This document shows, piece after piece, positions 28,442 to 45,837 of a stretch of DNA of 49,855 bases; positions within the stretch are counted from its first letter, which is position 1, and each line of letters begins with the position of its first letter. The notes below the pieces were generated by a model. It had not been told where the DNA came from. It saw nothing but the letters and a program-made list of their open reading frames with translations, and ran no database searches. The stretch comes from Fibrobacter sp. (GTDB taxonomy: Bacteria; Fibrobacterota; Fibrobacteria; Fibrobacterales; Fibrobacteraceae): positions 1-49,855 of the forward strand of contig JAAYJH010000108.1 in assembly GCA_012523035.1 (NCBI GenBank). The letters run 5' to 3'. Made by a program: the position numbers and the translations under genes.

Positions 28442-28870
28442 TTATTTTAACCAATTTAGTTTGTTCAAGTTACTGTCTGCCAAGTCTTTGATCGAAATAT
28501 TATCAAAATAGTCTCGAACCATTTTAGCAAACCGTTCCCACATAGGGAGAGTTTTACAAGTAGTGTTTCTATCACAAACCGGGGCTTTACATTCTAAACA
28601 AGTGACCGGAGCCAAAGAAACCTCGGTCACACAGAGTATATCGCTTATCTTATATTTTTCTGCATCTTTGGTGAGTTTATAACCACCACCTTTACCTTGT
28701 AAACCTTGAACTAACTGATGTTTAGTAAGCAAAGACATGATGCTTTCTAGGTATTTTAATGAAATATTTTGACTTTTAGCAAGCTCTTTTAATGGCACAT
28801 AAGCGTCATTCCTTTCTGCAAGTTCAATCATTACACGCAAAGCGTATCTGCTTTTTGTAGAAAACTTCAT
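28442..28870 (-). CDS. Rrf2 family transcriptional regulator
   Basis: The 142-residue protein has the Rrf2 winged helix (MKFSTKSRYALRVMIELA, then SLKYLESIMSLL and GLQGKGGGYKL) and four cysteines at 91, 94, 99 and 105. The last three have spacing close to the IscR iron-sulfur ligands (C-x5-C-x5-C), so it may carry a cluster or sense thiols. It lies at the end of the metY-cysK operon and is likely the regulator of sulfur assimilation, comparable in role to CymR. The probable targets are the palindromes at 31171 and 31213. The start has AGAGGT seven bases upstream. Confidence 0.92.
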   Translation of the reverse strand: MKFSTKSRYALRVMIELAERNDAYVPLKELAKSQNISLKYLESIMSLLTKHQLVQGLQGKGGGYKLTKDAEKYKISDILCVTEVSLAPVTCLECKAPVCDRNTTCKTLPMWERFAKMVRDYFDNISIKDLADSNLNKLNWLK

Positions 28871-28914
28871 AATTTACCTCTTTATATCATAAGCATACTG
28901 TAAGACTGTATATT

Positions 28915-29856
28915 TTATGTTTTTACCTCGTTAAAAAGTGGAGTGGACAAGTAGCGTTCTCCAGTATCTGGAAAAATCGTGACTATATTTTTACCTTCGT
29001 TTTCGGGCTTTTTAGCTAGTTTTATGGCAGCAAAAAGAGATGCACCAGAAGAAATCCCCACCACAAAGCCTTCGTGAGTTCCTACTAACTTTGCATATTC
29101 AAAAGCCTCGTCATTTGTAACGGTAATGACTTGCTGATAAATTTGGGTATCCAATGTTTCTGGAATAAAACCAGCACCAATCCCTTGAATTTTATGTAGA
29201 CCAGCGACTCCTGTAGTCAAAACAGCAGAATCGGTGGGTTCCACAGCGACTATTTCAATCGCAGGAATTTTTTCTTTTAAAAATTTCCCAGCACCAGAGA
29301 TAGTACCGCCTGTACCCACTCCAGCGACAAAAATATCAATAGAAGCTTTAGTATCGTTAAAGAGCTCTGGTCCAGTGGTTTCGTAGTGTATTCTGGGGTT
29401 AGCAGGGTTTACAAACTGTCCTGGAACAAAGCTATTCGGAATAGTTTCGGCGAGTTCTTTTACTTTTTCAAGAGCTCCTTTCATACCTTTAGTTCCGTCG
29501 GTCAAATAAAGTTCTGCACCGTGTGCTTTGATAAGCTGTCTTCTTTCTATAGACATGGTCTCTGGCATCACTATGATCACCTTATAACCTTTTGCTGTGC
29601 CCACAGAAGCAAGTGCAATACCCGTATTTCCCGAAGAAGCTTCAATAATTACAGAATTTGGTTTTAATACTGAGTTTTTTTCTGCATCTTCTATCATGGC
29701 TTTAGCTATGCGATCTTTCACAGAACCACAAGGGTTAAAAGCCTCTACTTTTGCAAAGATATTTGCCTTTAAAGAGTAAAGCTCTTGGATATGTTGGAGT
29801 TCTATTACAGGAGTGTTTCCTATTGTTTGATCACTAGAAGTGTATATTTTAGACAT
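28915..29856 (-). CDS. cysK: Cysteine synthase (O-acetylserine sulfhydrylase)
   Basis: This PLP enzyme makes cysteine from O-acetylserine and sulfide. The 313 residues include the PLP-lysine motif NPCGSVKDR (Lys47), the substrate loop EASSGNTGIALA (73-84) and the phosphate-binding GVGTGGTISG. Length is standard. It lies 8 bp after metY and 44 bp before the Rrf2 gene, all on the minus strand, so one regulated unit is likely. Confidence 0.96.
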   Translation of the reverse strand: MSKIYTSSDQTIGNTPVIELQHIQELYSLKANIFAKVEAFNPCGSVKDRIAKAMIEDAEKNSVLKPNSVIIEASSGNTGIALASVGTAKGYKVIIVMPETMSIERRQLIKAHGAELYLTDGTKGMKGALEKVKELAETIPNSFVPGQFVNPANPRIHYETTGPELFNDTKASIDIFVAGVGTGGTISGAGKFLKEKIPAIEIVAVEPTDSAVLTTGVAGLHKIQGIGAGFIPETLDTQIYQQVITVTNDEAFEYAKLVGTHEGFVVGISSGASLFAAIKLAKKPENEGKNIVTIFPDTGERYLSTPLFNEVKT

Positions 29857-29864
29857 AAAATCCT

Positions 29865-31151
29865 CTATTTTACAGCATTAAAACCGTTTTCTAAATCCGT
29901 TAATAGATCGTCGATATGCTCTGTGCCTATGGACAATCGAATAGTGTTAGGTGTAATCCCAGAAGCTTTTAATGCCTCTGCAGACAATTGTGAGTGAGTC
30001 GTAGAAGCAGGGTGAATCACCAATGATTTCACATCTGCCACATTTGCAAGTAAAGAAAATAGCTTTAAACTCTCAGTGAATTTTTGAGCTTTCTCTTGAT
30101 TTCCCTTGATTTCAAAAGAAAATATAGATGCCCCTCCTTTTGGGAAGTAACGATCATACAATTCTTTTTGTTTTCCAGTAGAAAGAGCGGGGTGGTTCAC
30201 TTTTTCTACATCGGGGTGTTTATTCAAAAATTCTACAACTTTTAGAGCATTCTCCACATGCCTTTCTACTCGTAAAGATAAAGTTTCAAGACCTTGAAGC
30301 AGTAAAAAAGAGTTGAATGGAGAAATAGCAGCCCCTTGGTCTCTCATCAAGGTAGTCCGTAGTTTAATAATATAAGCTAAAGAACCTACAACTTCACCAA
30401 AAACTACTCCATGATACGAGGGATTTGGCTTAGAGATACCTGGAAACTTATCGTTAGCAAGCCAATCAAATCGACCAGCATCGATCACCACACCTCCAAT
30501 AACCGTCCCGTGTCCACCAATGAATTTGGTAGCAGAATGTATCACAATATCTGCACCGTGTTCAATAGGACGAAACAGGTAAGGAGTAGCAAAAGTGTTA
30601 TCAACTAAAAGTGGAATACCATGTTTATGAGCTATTTTTGAAAGGGCATCGATATCTGTTAAATCAGAATTGGGATTTCCTAGAGCTTCCACATAAATCA
30701 GCTTGGTATTTTTTTGAATAGCCTTTTCAAAAGCGTCAGTATTTTGTGGATCCACAAAAGTAACAGACAAACCTTGCTCACGAAGCGTATTTTCAAAAAG
30801 ATTATGTGTGCCGCCGTAGAGATTTGAAGCAGAAATAAAATGATCTCCAGATACCGCAATATTTTGAATAGCATAAGAAATAGCGGCAGAACCAGAAGCG
30901 GTAGCCAAAGCCGCAGCTCCACCCTCTAAAGCAGCGATGCGTTTCTCAAAAACATCCGAAGTAGGGTTCATTAAACGAGAGTATATATTTCCACCTTCTG
31001 TCAAGCTAAAACGACCTTGTGCCTGTTTTGAATTTTCAAACACATAAGAAGTAGTAGCGTAAATAGGCACTGCTCGTGCACCCGTCGCCGGGTCTGGCTC
31101 CTCTTGACCTACATGCAACTGTAGAGTCTCAAATTTATAATTATTATTCAT
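29865..31151 (-). CDS. metY: O-acetylhomoserine aminocarboxypropyltransferase (sulfhydrylase)
   Basis: The enzyme forms homocysteine from O-acetylhomoserine and sulfide, with PLP bound to Lys209 in IHSATKFIGGHG. Other signatures are YSRLMNPTSDVFEKRIAALEGG and ASNLYGGTHNLF, which favour the sulfhydrylase over cystathionine gamma-synthase. The 428-residue length is typical. The ATG at 31151 follows AGGAAG seven bases upstream. A near-consensus promoter and two matching palindromes lie directly upstream, indicating repression of the sulfur operon. Confidence 0.95.
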   Translation of the reverse strand: MNNNYKFETLQLHVGQEEPDPATGARAVPIYATTSYVFENSKQAQGRFSLTEGGNIYSRLMNPTSDVFEKRIAALEGGAAALATASGSAAISYAIQNIAVSGDHFISASNLYGGTHNLFENTLREQGLSVTFVDPQNTDAFEKAIQKNTKLIYVEALGNPNSDLTDIDALSKIAHKHGIPLLVDNTFATPYLFRPIEHGADIVIHSATKFIGGHGTVIGGVVIDAGRFDWLANDKFPGISKPNPSYHGVVFGEVVGSLAYIIKLRTTLMRDQGAAISPFNSFLLLQGLETLSLRVERHVENALKVVEFLNKHPDVEKVNHPALSTGKQKELYDRYFPKGGASIFSFEIKGNQEKAQKFTESLKLFSLLANVADVKSLVIHPASTTHSQLSAEALKASGITPNTIRLSIGTEHIDDLLTDLENGFNAVK

Positions 31152-38959: not shown

Positions 38960-39013
38960 CTTTTAATGTGGGAAGTGAGAAGCTCTTAGAGTTTAGAGAA
39001 GAGCTGCATTTTC

Positions 39014-39258
39014 TGGCATGATTTTCGCAATACATTTCAACCACGCATCCCAGCCTTTTTGGCACGCATTTCGCAGTACATTTCAAGCACGCATCCAGCT
39101 TTTCTGGCACGCATTTCGCAGTACATTTCAAGCACGCATCCCAGCGTTTTTGGCACGCATTTCGCAGTACATTTCAAGCACGCATCCCAGCCTTTTTGGC
39201 ACGCATTTCGCAGTACATTTCAAGCACGCATCCCAGCTTTTATGGCACGCACTTCGAC
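39014..39258 (+). repeat. 45-46-bp tandem array of sigma-54-like boxes
   Basis: TGGCACGCATTTCGCA (or TGGCATGATTTTCGCA in the first unit) starts at 39014, 39060, 39105, 39151 and 39197, and a degenerate sixth at 39243. The rest of each unit reads GTACATTTCAAGCACGCATC plus CCAGC. Each of the five boxes keeps GG and GC with 10 bases between, the spacing of sigma-54 -24/-12 promoters. Confidence 0.85.
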
Positions 39259-40937: not shown

Positions 40938-41423
40938 TTAAAGTGCGTGAATGGCAAGCAAGGCAAGTAAAATTCCAGCATAAAATCCGCCTAACATGTC
41001 GTCGCTCATCACACCCCAAGCTCCAGGTAATTTTTCTAAACTTTGAATTCCTAAAGGTTTTATAATGTCAAAAAACCTAAACAAGATAAACCCAACTAAA
41101 AAAAGCCAAGGATGATCCAATAAAATTGCTATGGGAGTAAAAGCAAAACTCAACCACTGGCCAGCAACTTCGTCAATGACAATCCATCCGGGATCACTGG
41201 TTTTGGATTGCTTCATGGCTTTTTGGACAATGGGAATGCTGATGAAAAAAAGTATCACAGAGAAGATAAAGAAAAAGTTAATGATACTGAATAGGCTAAT
41301 AAGATAAGCCACTAGCATTGCAGCCAAACTTCCATAAGTGCCGGGCATTTTAGGGAGCAAGCCGCTTCCAAAAAAAGTACAGTAAATTAAAGAAAGTTTG
41401 GATAATTTTTGATGTTCTTTCAT
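40938..41423 (-). CDS. pgpA: Phosphatidylglycerophosphatase A
   Basis: The membrane enzyme dephosphorylates phosphatidylglycerol phosphate. About 161 residues show PKMPGTYGSL near the N-terminus, WIVIDEVAGQWL in the middle and RFFDIIKPLGI and GVMSDDMLGGFYAG near the end, all diagnostic. Three or four helices are seen. The ATG at 41423 forms an ATGA overlap with the hflX stop, so it is preferred over the TTG at 41435. It ends the guaA-hflX-pgpA run. Confidence 0.93.
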   Translation of the reverse strand: MKEHQKLSKLSLIYCTFFGSGLLPKMPGTYGSLAAMLVAYLISLFSIINFFFIFSVILFFISIPIVQKAMKQSKTSDPGWIVIDEVAGQWLSFAFTPIAILLDHPWLFLVGFILFRFFDIIKPLGIQSLEKLPGAWGVMSDDMLGGFYAGILLALLAIHAL

Positions 41424-42571
41424 GTCGATACCCAAGATTTTGACGATTTATGTGCTTTTTTCTCCTGATTTTTCCTTTTTTTGTAAAACTTTTTAGTTTC
41501 TTTTTGGATTTGTTTTTTTAAGATTTCTAGCCCAATGTTTTCTTTGGCACTAATCTGTATGATGTGCGGAAACTTTTGGAGTAATTGCTGTCGTATAGGC
41601 GCTTCTAAAACTTCCACCTTATTAAAGACATGAATTTTTGGAGTTTTGGGGTCTATAATTTGCTCTAAAACATTTTGGGTGACTTCTAGATGCTCCGAAA
41701 AGTCAGAGGCAGAGGCGTCGATGACTTCTAAAATACAGTCTGCATAGGCCACTACTCCAAGAGTGCTTTTAAAGGTTTCGATCAAATGGTGGGGGAGTTT
41801 TCGAATGAATCCAACGGTATCACTTAAAATAACTTCATGTTCATGGTCTATATATAATTTTCTTGTGGTGCTATCTAAAGTGGCAAAAAGTTTGTTTTCG
41901 GTATAAATATCTGCTTTGGTGAGTCGATTCATTAAAGTGCTTTTGCCTACATTGGTGTAGCCGACAATCCCTACATGAAATACATCGCTTCTGTTTTCTG
42001 CTTGTCGCTGTCGAATGCTTTCGATTTGTTTCAATTTATTATTTAAGAATTGTATGCGTTTTCTAATGAATCGCCGATCCGTTTCTAATTTAGTCTCTCC
42101 AGGTCCTTTGGTGCCTATCCCTCCATTGTGTTGCCGGCAAAGGTGAGTCCACCGACCAGTCAATCGAGGCATAAAATATTCCAGTTGAGCCACTTCTACC
42201 ATTAAACGACTTTCCGAAGTTTGAGCTTGTTTGGCGAAAATGTCTAAAATAAGCCCAGTCCTGTCTAGAACTTTGATTCCAGGGAGCTTGTTTTCTAAGT
42301 TTTTGATTTGTGAACCCGAAAGTTCTTCATCAAAAATGACCATTTTAGCTTCGTGTGCTTCTAGAGCTTCTTTGATTTCTAACAGCTTGCCATCTCCAAT
42401 TAAAGTCGCTGGGTTGAAGGCGACCAGTCTTTGGATAAATGTTTGCACTACTTCTGCTTTGGCTGTTTCTGCTAATCGAAAGAGTTCTTGGAGATGCTCT
42501 TCGGCTTGCCATAATTTTATTTTAGAAGTGGCGATGCCTACAAGGATTGTTTTTTCTAAACTTATTCCCAC
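41420..42571 (-). CDS. hflX: GTPase HflX
   Basis: HflX is a ribosome-associated GTPase that splits stalled ribosomes. The 383 residues have the N-terminal HflX domain, the GGIGTKGPGETKLETDRR linker (150-167) and the G domain: P-loop GYTNVGKST (204-212) and switch DTVGFIRKLPHHLIE. The GTG start overlaps the guaA stop by 10 bp. The C-terminus is lysine-rich. Confidence 0.95.
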   Translation of the reverse strand: MGISLEKTILVGIATSKIKLWQAEEHLQELFRLAETAKAEVVQTFIQRLVAFNPATLIGDGKLLEIKEALEAHEAKMVIFDEELSGSQIKNLENKLPGIKVLDRTGLILDIFAKQAQTSESRLMVEVAQLEYFMPRLTGRWTHLCRQHNGGIGTKGPGETKLETDRRFIRKRIQFLNNKLKQIESIRQRQAENRSDVFHVGIVGYTNVGKSTLMNRLTKADIYTENKLFATLDSTTRKLYIDHEHEVILSDTVGFIRKLPHHLIETFKSTLGVVAYADCILEVIDASASDFSEHLEVTQNVLEQIIDPKTPKIHVFNKVEVLEAPIRQQLLQKFPHIIQISAKENIGLEILKKQIQKETKKFYKKRKNQEKKAHKSSKSWVST

Positions 42572-44391
42572 TCAATAGTTCCAGGTGGTTTATGAGTGAT
42601 ATCGTACCATAAAGCCCCCGCTCCAATAGATTTCATTTGCAGCCAAAATGGCTCTAATAGATTAAAGTCAATGGGTGCAAATTTTGCGGTGATAGCATCA
42701 GAACTGTGAATAGGCCTCATGACTATGCAGGCTTTGTTTTGAATCTGAAGGGGAACTTGTACCACGGGCATTTGCCAAATGTCTTGGTATAGATTGTTTT
42801 CTTCTAAAAACTGGGTGGCTTTGTCATCAAAAAGACGCAAAGAATCCAAAGTGTTTTTTGTGGTGTATTGCTCGATCAATACAGGTTCTTCTGCATTTAT
42901 ACTTCCTATTTGATAAACAATTCGATTTATTTCTTTAAATTCTTTTAATAAATTTGAAGCTAAAAGTTCTAGCTCGCTCCAATCTTGGTGTTTGCTAGTG
43001 ATTAAAAAAGGCTGTGCATAGGTGCGTCCATGAGTTTGAACTCCAACACTTTGTATGGGGAGTAAATAACCTTGAATCTTATTTTCTTTTAAATAGCTGG
43101 ATAGTTTTGGAATTTGTTCGGCACTTGGTAAATGGTTTTGACCAGTAGAACACAGCAAGCGAACCCCTAAACCAGGACCCGGGAATGGGTGACGCCAGAC
43201 CAATGAATGGGGGATACCTAGTTCTTCGCCCAAAACTCGAACTTCGTCTTTGTATAAATCCATTAATGGCTCGATCAGAAGCCCTTGATCCATTAAATTT
43301 AATACTTCTTGCACTCTATTGTGATGGGTTTTGACTAAGTTGCTTTTGTCAGAGTCCCCACTTTCTAAAATGTCGGGATAAATGGTGCCCTGGGCTATGA
43401 TCCATTGAGATGGGTCTAAGTGGAGTCGCTCCATTTCTCGATCTTTGATTTTTAAGAATGTGGCTCCAATAATTTTTCTTTTTTCTTCGGGGGCTGTGAT
43501 TCCCTGTAAAGCTTCTAGAAACTCTTCACTGGCATCACAAACTTGAAGATTTTTCATGCCTTCGGCTTCTAAAAAATTCAAAACCTTTTGTGATTCTCCC
43601 AAACGCATCATTCCACTATCGATATGGAGGCCAAGGACTCTAGATGGACCTAGTATTTTGTTTAACAAGACAAACGCGACAGTGCTATCGACACCACCCG
43701 AGACTAATAAAAACACATTTTTATTTTGAGTTTGTGTTATTATTTTTTTAGAGATCAAATCGAGGTAATTTCTCATATTCCAAGATTTTTGAACCTTGCA
43801 TATATCTAAAAAATTAGAGAATATTTGATTTCCAAAACTGGTGTGAGCCAATTCGGGGTGAAAGGCCACTCCATAAGTCTTAAGAGAGTCGTTGATTATA
43901 ATAGCATGGGGAGTTTTGGAGGTGTGAGCAAAACTTTTTAAGTTTTCTGATAAAAGCACATTGTGACTGGTATCCATCCATACATTGGAATCTGTAATTC
44001 CCTTTAAAAGAGGATGGTCTGGATGAGTAATGCTTAATTTAGAAACACCGTAGTCTTTATTCCCTTCAAATTTCAATCCATCGATTTCAGAGGAATCTGT
44101 AGATTTTTGGACTATTTTTGCTCCTAATTCTTTTGCTAATAATTGGTAACCATAAGAAATGCCAAGTTTTGGAACAGGAATAGAAAAAATTTCTGGATTG
44201 TATTGAGGGATTTTTGAAGTATCGTCTGTGCTTCCGCTATAAATAATTCCTTGAACCTCACTCAAATTTTTGGCGTCGGTGCTAGGGGAGTGTATTTCGC
44301 TAAAAACACCTAGTTGTCGTAAACGATTGGCTATAAGATGGGTATAAGGACCACCAAAATCGAGAACCGCAATGGTATCGTTTTTTTTCAA
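42562..44391 (-). CDS. guaA: GMP synthase, long form, with Cys-to-Ser in the glutaminase site
   Basis: The protein converts XMP to GMP. The ATP pyrophosphatase loop LVSGGVDST (229-237) and HPFPGPGLGVRLL are intact. At 609 residues it exceeds the usual 510-525, and the C-terminal dimerisation region (GYLLPIQSVGVQ, ending KPPGTIEWE) follows the longer form known from eukaryotes. In the N-terminal glutamine amidotransferase domain the nucleophile motif reads LGISYGYQ, with Ser79 (codon 44157-44155) where Cys is expected, and the oxyanion segment reads IIYSGSTDD. His178 and Glu180 of the triad remain (FHPE). It may depend on free ammonia or another glutaminase. Confidence 0.93.
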   Translation of the reverse strand: MKKNDTIAVLDFGGPYTHLIANRLRQLGVFSEIHSPSTDAKNLSEVQGIIYSGSTDDTSKIPQYNPEIFSIPVPKLGISYGYQLLAKELGAKIVQKSTDSSEIDGLKFEGNKDYGVSKLSITHPDHPLLKGITDSNVWMDTSHNVLLSENLKSFAHTSKTPHAIIINDSLKTYGVAFHPELAHTSFGNQIFSNFLDICKVQKSWNMRNYLDLISKKIITQTQNKNVFLLVSGGVDSTVAFVLLNKILGPSRVLGLHIDSGMMRLGESQKVLNFLEAEGMKNLQVCDASEEFLEALQGITAPEEKRKIIGATFLKIKDREMERLHLDPSQWIIAQGTIYPDILESGDSDKSNLVKTHHNRVQEVLNLMDQGLLIEPLMDLYKDEVRVLGEELGIPHSLVWRHPFPGPGLGVRLLCSTGQNHLPSAEQIPKLSSYLKENKIQGYLLPIQSVGVQTHGRTYAQPFLITSKHQDWSELELLASNLLKEFKEINRIVYQIGSINAEEPVLIEQYTTKNTLDSLRLFDDKATQFLEENNLYQDIWQMPVVQVPLQIQNKACIVMRPIHSSDAITAKFAPIDFNLLEPFWLQMKSIGAGALWYDITHKPPGTIEWE

Positions 44392-44394
44392 GGA

Positions 44395-45837
44395 TTATTC
44401 TCCTAATTGGCGTGCTAATTCAGTTAAAGTTTGAACTCCAATCCCTGTTGCTCCATAAGAAGTGTATTTCCACTCTTTGGTGGTAAACGCAGTCCCTGCA
44501 ATATCCAAATGAGACCACGCTGTGTTTTCAGGTACAAATTCTTTTAGGAATAATGCTGCAGAAATAGCCCCGGCATCTGCTCCAATATTCTGGAGGTCAG
44601 CGAATTTTCCTTGAAGGCCATCGGCATATTCTTCTTCGAGAGGGAGTTGCCATAGCTTTTCACAAGAAGCTTCTCCTGCATCTTTTAATTTAGAGGCTAA
44701 ATCCGAATCATTGCTAAAGAATCCAGTAATCGCATAGCCCAATGCTCGAACCATAGCTCCTGTCAAAGTGGCTAAATCTACAATATGAGTTGCTTTTAAT
44801 AATTCAGCTTCGGCCAGTCCGTCACTCAAAGCCAATCGACCTTCTGCATCGGTGTTGTCCACCATCACAGTTTTTCCGTTTTTGGCTGTGAAAATATCCC
44901 CTGGCAATACAGCATTAGAGCCTATTTTGTTTTCTGCTAAACACAATACAGCACTCACGCGAATAGGGAGTTTCAATAAAGCGATGCTTCGAATGGCTCC
45001 AAGAACCGCGGCGGCACCAGACATATCACAACACATTTCCCACATTCCAGTCGCTGGTTTTAAACTCACTCCTCCTGTATCAAAAGTGAGCCCTTTCCCT
45101 ACTAATACCAAATGAGTATTTGCCTTTGCATTTTCTGGTTTATATTCTAAAGTGACTAAGTATGGTTTAGAGGGGCTGCCTTTGCCCACAGTGACCAAAC
45201 CATTGAATGATTCGGCTTTTAAAGCCTCAAAATCACGAACTTTAATATCTAATTCAGCTTCGTCTGCCACTTTATGAGCTTCTTGCATAAAAGTAAAGGG
45301 AGTGAAATCACCGCTCGGTGTATTGATCCAATTTTTAGTTAATACAATAGAGGACTGCTCGATTTCTACTTCTTTTGCAATCCTTATAAAGTCTTTTGTC
45401 TTATCTTTGGCATCAATTTGATACTGAATATCTATAGGAGTGCTTTTTTTACTTTTATATCGATCAAATTGATATTCTGCGGCATACAAGCCATGAAAAA
45501 TAGACCTAGCTTCGGCGGCAGATGCTTTGGACAAATCAATCCCAATGGAATCTAATTTCCTTTGTTTTAACTTTTTCGCGAGTTTGTATGCAGCCACACG
45601 AAGTTTATCTAAAGGGCTTAAACCTCGGCCTTTCAACTGTACAAAAATTGTTTCTACAGAATCAATGGAGTGGATTTCCAAGTTATCAAAAACCCCTTCT
45701 TCTATATTATGAATAATGGATTTTACTTTTGTTTGTGCTTCTAAAGAGAGTCCTTCGGTGAACAATAAATTTTGTTTTTCGAAAAACAAAGCGGCATATG
45801 GAGATACTTGTTTGTTGTTTTCTATATTTAATTTCAT
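44395..45837 (-). CDS. pepA: Leucyl aminopeptidase, M17 family
   Basis: This 480-residue cytosolic metallopeptidase removes N-terminal amino acids. The metal and catalytic segments VGKGLTFDTGGVSLKP (lysine and aspartate) and NTDAEGRLALSDGL (aspartate, glutamate, arginine) are intact, and the N-terminal macro-like domain is present. It sits 3 bp upstream of guaA, so it probably heads the pepA-guaA-hflX-pgpA transcript. Confidence 0.95.
   Translation of the reverse strand: MKLNIENNKQVSPYAALFFEKQNLLFTEGLSLEAQTKVKSIIHNIEEGVFDNLEIHSIDSVETIFVQLKGRGLSPLDKLRVAAYKLAKKLKQRKLDSIGIDLSKASAAEARSIFHGLYAAEYQFDRYKSKKSTPIDIQYQIDAKDKTKDFIRIAKEVEIEQSSIVLTKNWINTPSGDFTPFTFMQEAHKVADEAELDIKVRDFEALKAESFNGLVTVGKGSPSKPYLVTLEYKPENAKANTHLVLVGKGLTFDTGGVSLKPATGMWEMCCDMSGAAAVLGAIRSIALLKLPIRVSAVLCLAENKIGSNAVLPGDIFTAKNGKTVMVDNTDAEGRLALSDGLAEAELLKATHIVDLATLTGAMVRALGYAITGFFSNDSDLASKLKDAGEASCEKLWQLPLEEEYADGLQGKFADLQNIGADAGAISAALFLKEFVPENTAWSHLDIAGTAFTTKEWKYTSYGATGIGVQTLTELARQLGE

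Follow-up and report, generated by a model that had tools for sequence, protein, structure and literature searches.

A Fibrobacter GMP synthetase with a decayed glutaminase domain, and parallel glutaminase losses in other bacteria

The only guaA gene of a Fibrobacter genome, judged from its sequence, very probably encodes a functional, ammonia-dependent GMP synthetase whose glutaminase domain is inactive; its activity is inferred, and no assay has been made. Free ammonia is usually scarce in cells, and for this reason glutamine is regarded as a near-universal donor of nitrogen for nucleotide synthesis. In the enzyme described here, the synthetase domain would adenylate XMP and then aminate it with free ammonia, and the glutaminase domain would be catalytically dead, staying folded in a probably structural role. 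Several class-I glutaminases would have been retired in this one genome, namely those of GuaA, PurL, CarB's partner CarA and probably PyrG, with much nucleotide nitrogen coming straight from ammonia and glutamine still used by TrpG, PurF and GlmS. The organism thus probably builds nucleotides directly from free ammonia; its own exposure to ammonia is unknown.

The gene lies on a stretch of 49,855 nucleotides (GenBank assembly GCA_012523035.1, contig JAAYJH010000108.1, positions 1 to 49,855 of the forward strand), which was analysed whole and is called the window below. The features that matter here are as follows.

42562..44391, minus strand: guaA, GMP synthetase of 609 aa, TTG start, the genome's sole copy
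43786..44391, minus strand: degenerate class-I glutaminase domain, about residues 1-202 (PF00117 at residues 9-195), 19 of 49 invariant columns altered
44155..44157, minus strand: Ser79 codon TCT in place of the nucleophile Cys, motif LGISYGYQ
44221..44241, minus strand: YSGSTDD, altered oxyanion-hole segment (YSGGPxSVY in the closest relatives)
43963..43974, minus strand: residues 140-143, DTSH; the glutamine-binding loop of relatives reads SHGD here (role assigned via motif position; PMC4673825)
43852..43860, minus strand: His178-Pro179-Glu180, the remaining part of the triad, retained
42565..43785, minus strand: synthetase (ATP-pyrophosphatase) and C-terminal domains, intact (PF02540, PF00958), 10 of 141 invariant columns altered
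44395..45837, minus strand: leucyl aminopeptidase gene (PF00883), directly upstream of guaA after a 3-base gap
41420..42571, minus strand: HflX-type GTPase gene, its start overlapping the end of guaA

Both the leucyl aminopeptidase gene and the HflX-type GTPase gene probably belong to the same operon as guaA. Elsewhere in the window, a tandem array (39009-39256; 46-bp unit, 5.1 copies, 93% matches) occupies the stretch after gyrA and is traversed by a small ORF that encodes repeated FWHAFRSTFQARI-like peptides. At 28442-31151, an Rrf2-type regulator stands beside a cysteine-synthase-like PALP enzyme and a Cys/Met PLP enzyme; we consider cysteine shortage an unlikely cause of the Cys loss, as the window itself carries cysteine-synthase-like genes.

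That the protein belongs to the GMP synthetase family is clear from its domain matches. The N-terminal class-I GATase fold was recognized by PF00117 (77.5 bits against a cut-off of 22.8), PF02540 and PF00958 matched above cut-off, as expected of an ATP-pyrophosphatase (SGGVDS) followed by GMP_synt_C, and the whole-protein model NF000848 was passed at 423 bits (cut-off 400). Two curated domain models were failed, TIGR00888 (126 against 172.15 bits) and TIGR00884 (254 against 338.75 bits). The initial annotation had described the longer, eukaryote-like form with an intact synthetase domain, a serine at the nucleophile position and an altered oxyanion segment, and all of this held: the best solved relative is human GMPS (2vxo), the length is common to close relatives, and codon and position are as it claimed. 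It was also right that His178 and Glu180 remain. The Cys-His-Glu triad of glutamine-hydrolysing GMP synthase (EC 6.3.5.2) is therefore not met, Ser79, His178 and Glu180 standing in its place; a glutaminase domain kept without its catalytic Cys, the mark of a CPS I-like case, is met.

The observed changes reach well beyond the nucleophile. Whereas class-I glutaminases have Cys at this position, as do all 29 nearest full-length homologues (including L020, which reads LGICYGHH), the window protein has Ser. We then scored columns that were invariant among 27 relatives in an alignment of 28 full-length homologues, the window GuaA being excluded from the definition. By this measure, it alters 19 of the 49 invariant glutaminase columns but only 10 of the 141 synthetase columns (Fisher p 9e-7), while no other homologue in the alignment changes more than five in either domain. 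On a fixed tree, its end branch carries 1.25 substitutions per site in the glutaminase and 0.38 in the synthetase (ratio 3.3, compared with 1.24 over the tree as a whole), and identity to G003 is 52% in the GATase and 71% in the synthetase. Among the altered positions are the oxyanion Gly54 (to Ser), nucleophile 79 and the SHGD loop at 140-143 (to DTSH). The Asp of that loop appears, by motif position rather than structural alignment, to correspond to Asp172 of PfGMPS, whose mutation raises the glutamine Km 170-fold and leaves ammonia use unchanged (PMC4673825).

Despite these changes, the domain is predicted to fold: in an AlphaFold model, residues 1-200 have pLDDT mostly above 80, and the modelled domain superimposes on the human GMPS glutaminase domain (2vpi) with a target-normalised TM of 0.88. 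The model was built from a shallow alignment and is poor beyond residue 400, and we used it for the glutaminase domain alone. With a domain that folds in the model and His178 and Glu180 kept, weak glutaminase activity is not formally excluded, and inactivity remains an inference. Our reading of the protein as an ammonia-dependent enzyme rests in part on known mechanisms: the GMPS ATPPase is independent of the GATase and can take external ammonia (PMC10526850), the C89A mutant of PfGMPS no longer uses glutamine but keeps its activity with NH4Cl (kcat 63 vs 55 per min, Km 8 vs 19 mM; PMC4673825), and CPS I of land vertebrates is a natural ammonia-using precedent in another enzyme (PMC7657897).

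The other glutaminases of the same genome (2.2 Mb in 125 contigs, completeness 99.64%, contamination 0.11%) fall into two groups. In PurL, the nucleophile motif is LGVSNGAQ, with Ser for Cys (intact relatives have LG[IV]CNGCQ), HPE has become HVD, the oxyanion segment CGGFSYGD has become CSGSSFGD, and identity to G003 is 59% in the GATase against 69% in the rest. CarA was not found in the genome by its own domain model; that model had matches in all 14 control genomes and, of the 44 genomes searched, in 32. CarB is present (1088 aa, complete inside a 60-kb contig, flanked on one side by a ketol-acid-reductoisomerase-like gene and on the other by a membrane-protein gene, both identified by eye), and argG is present in the window; arginine synthesis, to which the argG enzyme belongs, requires carbamoyl phosphate. 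HisH is absent from the genome's PF00117 matches and was found in G002 and G006. In a draft of 125 contigs, CarA or HisH might fall in a gap. PyrG keeps its Cys but has lost an oxyanion glycine (PGGFG to PGSSG, that is, GGF to GSS). Of its invariant columns, 15 of 82 are altered in the GATase and 2 of 141 in the synthase part, and identity to G003 is 61% in the former and 78% in the latter. Judging by the motif, the lost glycine is at the same place as G352 of E. coli CTP synthase, where G352P abolishes glutamine use but not NH4Cl use (PMC9138612). TrpG, PurF and GlmS, in contrast, retain the nucleophile, and the divergence of their glutaminase domains is of the order found between intact relatives; TrpG-D is 77% identical to G003 in the glutaminase and 78% in the other part.

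The data leave the sparing of PurF, GlmS and TrpG unexplained. GlmS uses ammonia poorly, which would fit its own sparing. We also considered resistance to glutamine-analogue antibiotics as a cause and thought it unlikely, as PurF, GlmS and TrpG keep Cys.

Among relatives, decay or loss of the GuaA glutaminase recurs at later stages than in the window protein. The initial annotation had suggested checking whether orthologs share the serine; those compared do not, and several lack the whole glutaminase domain. Within the same family, one protein (L031, G014) keeps LEICHGHQ but has the region with the catalytic His and Glu deleted, another (L032, G005) has its glutaminase reduced to fragments, and two (L035, G004; L042, G036) begin at the synthetase. 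Three proteins from other families of the phylum (L036, L037, L038) are synthetase-only, and G002 and G018 have a short synthetase that is of another type and lacks a glutaminase. The synthetase loop SGGVDS is kept in all of these (L031, L032, L035-L038, L042 and the G002/G018 type), and at least four loss events are placed on the synthetase tree. Two species of one genus (L020, G034; L043, G020) have guaA within a single frame of about 1000-1200 aa, whose upstream part resembles MetX and MetW by eye, possibly a three-part fusion.

CarA tends to be lost in the same genomes. Among genomes at least 90% complete with calls for both proteins, and with CarA scored as lost when it was not there, when it ended ahead of its glutaminase domain or when its Cys was gone, loss was seen in all seven genomes whose GuaA glutaminase is lost (G000, G002, G004, G005, G014, G053, G058), against 3 of 20 in which it is intact (G006, G012, G040; Fisher p 1.4e-4, kinship ignored). 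A tree-based comparison has only four independent pairs, with CarA going in the same direction in 3.6 of 4 on average (sign test p 0.125, low power). PurL has Gly as its nucleophile in G004, G005, G014 and G058, PyrG is altered in G005, G014, G053, G023 and G026, and the TrpG of G005 reads LGIGLGHH. In G006, a full-length CarA (L120) with a dead glutaminase (MGFGLGHL, HPE to FPD) is the sole class-I loss seen. The CTP synthases of G023 and G026 (L274, L277) have Gly for Cys (LGIGYGMQ) with the GuaA Cys still present, so the order of loss differs among lineages. Three MAGs (G023, G036, G057) carry second, canonical-looking copies of CarA, PyrG or GuaA on other contigs, possibly contamination or recent transfer, and were excluded from the counts.

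The Ser-type change itself has arisen repeatedly, and many of the bacteria that carry it come from habitats rich in ammonia. Because a protein-only scan of genome contigs gave no matches, we searched about 85,000 species genomes with a DNA pattern that describes Ser-type GMPS. Eight of its 21 matches are full-length GMP synthetases from six unrelated lineages, and the remaining 13 lie outside GuaA and were set aside as chance. The carriers are three Sporosarcina, Aliibacillus thermotolerans, a member of the Fermentithermobacillaceae, and MAGs labelled Actinomyces, Fusobacteria and Bacillota, each with one full-scoring GuaA. The pattern detects only TCN serine in one motif context, so eight is a lower bound; as the scan asked for Ser, it offers no evidence that Ser is preferred.

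Most of these proteins also lack the loop Asp or the catalytic His, and several of their genomes show further losses. In the three Sporosarcina, PyrG, PurQ and CarA (the last recovered in two) also have Gly for Cys. Aliibacillus has two CarA and a PurQ with Gly, and a PyrG that keeps Cys with HPE changed to HPQ. In the Fusobacteria MAG, PurL and TrpG have Ser, PyrG has Gly and a HisH-like protein has Asn; the Actinomyces MAG has a PurQ with Gly and a HisH-like protein with Asn. PyrG and PurQ keep their Cys in the Fermentithermobacillaceae genome, which indicates that GuaA can go first. No base rate of co-loss in the carriers' phyla is available for comparison with these extra losses. Separately, one MAG (G068) has two PurQ (L233, L239) that differ at the nucleophile, Cys in one and Gly in the other; they may stem from two strains, one before and one after the loss.

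As for habitat, four of the eight Ser-type genomes bear biogas-reactor MAG names (in the naming scheme of PMC7038595), as against the nearly 1,600 species of that study, which account for no more than about 2% of the species in the scan. Aliibacillus was described as an ammonia oxidiser from compost (PMC9781867), and S. pasteurii, a relative outside this analysis, does not grow normally without ammonium or urea (PMC7872227). From these patterns we infer, with more confidence than doubt but well short of certainty, that the class-I glutaminases serving nucleotide synthesis form a set that bacteria living with plentiful ammonia have repeatedly given up; the ecological cause is part of that inference. 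The set would comprise GuaA, CarA, PyrG and PurL/PurQ, sometimes with TrpG and HisH, the class-II enzymes PurF and GlmS being kept, and the routes would be nucleophile point mutation, oxyanion decay, domain deletion and gene loss.

The initial annotation had left open whether the enzyme relies on free ammonia or on a separate glutaminase. Ammonia made in the cell by a separate glutaminase acting in trans (a GuaAa-like protein, a general glutaminase or an asparaginase) would remove any dependence on environmental ammonium, and archaeal GMPS does work with a separate subunit (PMC10526850). However, the only class-I GATases found in the genome are TrpG, PyrG and GuaA (PF00117) and PurL (PF13507); no stand-alone GuaAa is among its PF00117 matches, as a two-subunit enzyme of the archaeal type would need, and a dedicated GuaA partner would not explain the losses in PurL, CarA and PyrG. 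Our search covered class-I GATases and not other glutaminases, and we regard such a supply as unlikely rather than impossible. Reliance on free ammonia is better supported: the glutaminase site has decayed throughout, PurL, CarA and PyrG show parallel losses, and the convergent cases come from biogas reactors, compost and a genus with a ureolytic member that requires ammonium or urea. Ammonia use is still deduced.

A slightly weaker case can be made for Ser79 as a slower nucleophile in a Ser-His-Glu triad with weak glutaminase activity. His178 and Glu180 are there to complete such a triad, and Ser recurs in eight other GMP synthetases, albeit in a scan that required it. Yet the oxyanion and glutamine-binding positions have changed too, the missing loop Asp or catalytic His of most convergent cases speaks against it, and parallel losses have produced Gly, Arg, Asn or deletions; we hold this improbable. 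Hardest to credit is that TCT, one base from TGT, results from faulty sequencing or assembly in this draft of 125 contigs, or that the gene is a decaying pseudogene in a guanine-salvaging organism: the glutaminase domain differs at 18 more invariant positions, the reading frame runs uninterrupted through 609 aa with a conserved synthetase, no second guaA was found in a 99.64%-complete genome, and three other enzymes show independent losses.

If glutaminases have indeed been lost repeatedly and in several enzymes at once, the glutamine-donor rule would be conditional on ammonia supply, the losses would offer a marker by which ammonium-dependent bacteria can be recognised from their genomes, as well as natural material for testing why glutaminases are kept, and ammonium dependence of nucleotide synthesis could underlie an ammonium requirement of the S. 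pasteurii type. With an inactive glutaminase, automatic 'glutamine-hydrolyzing' labels would be wrong for such proteins. In a survey of 600-800 genomes for each enzyme, every GuaA and PyrG (100%) was fused to a glutaminase, and no CarAB or PurL lacked one (PMC3376133); that survey scored architecture, not catalytic residues. In the literature we searched, which mostly left out subscription papers, there was no report of natural Cys loss in a bacterial GuaA, nor of joint glutaminase loss or a multi-enzyme switch from glutamine to ammonia, and prior mention of either in subscription papers is possible.

Among known systems, the window protein is closest to two-domain, long-form GuaA such as human GMPS (2vxo), sharing its architecture, synthetase motifs and GATase fold, but it differs from canonical GuaA in having Ser for the nucleophile Cys and changed oxyanion and glutamine-binding positions. 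Loss of the Cys or of the oxyanion-hole glycine abolishes glutamine use and leaves ammonia use in PfGMPS C89A and EcCTPS G352P (PMC4673825, PMC9138612); those are laboratory mutants, whereas the changes here occur in nature, in a domain that has decayed as well. Single-domain NAD synthetase (NadE lacking a glutaminase) is likewise an ATP-dependent amidotransferase and draws on free ammonia in vivo (PMC3376133), but its ammonia form is thought ancestral, while that of GuaA here would be derived by decay. Vertebrate CPS I also has a class-I glutaminase domain without the catalytic Cys and takes free ammonia as donor (PMC7657897); it is a different enzyme in a different pathway, and where it stands as one enzyme, the losses described here involve several enzymes and bacterial lineages.
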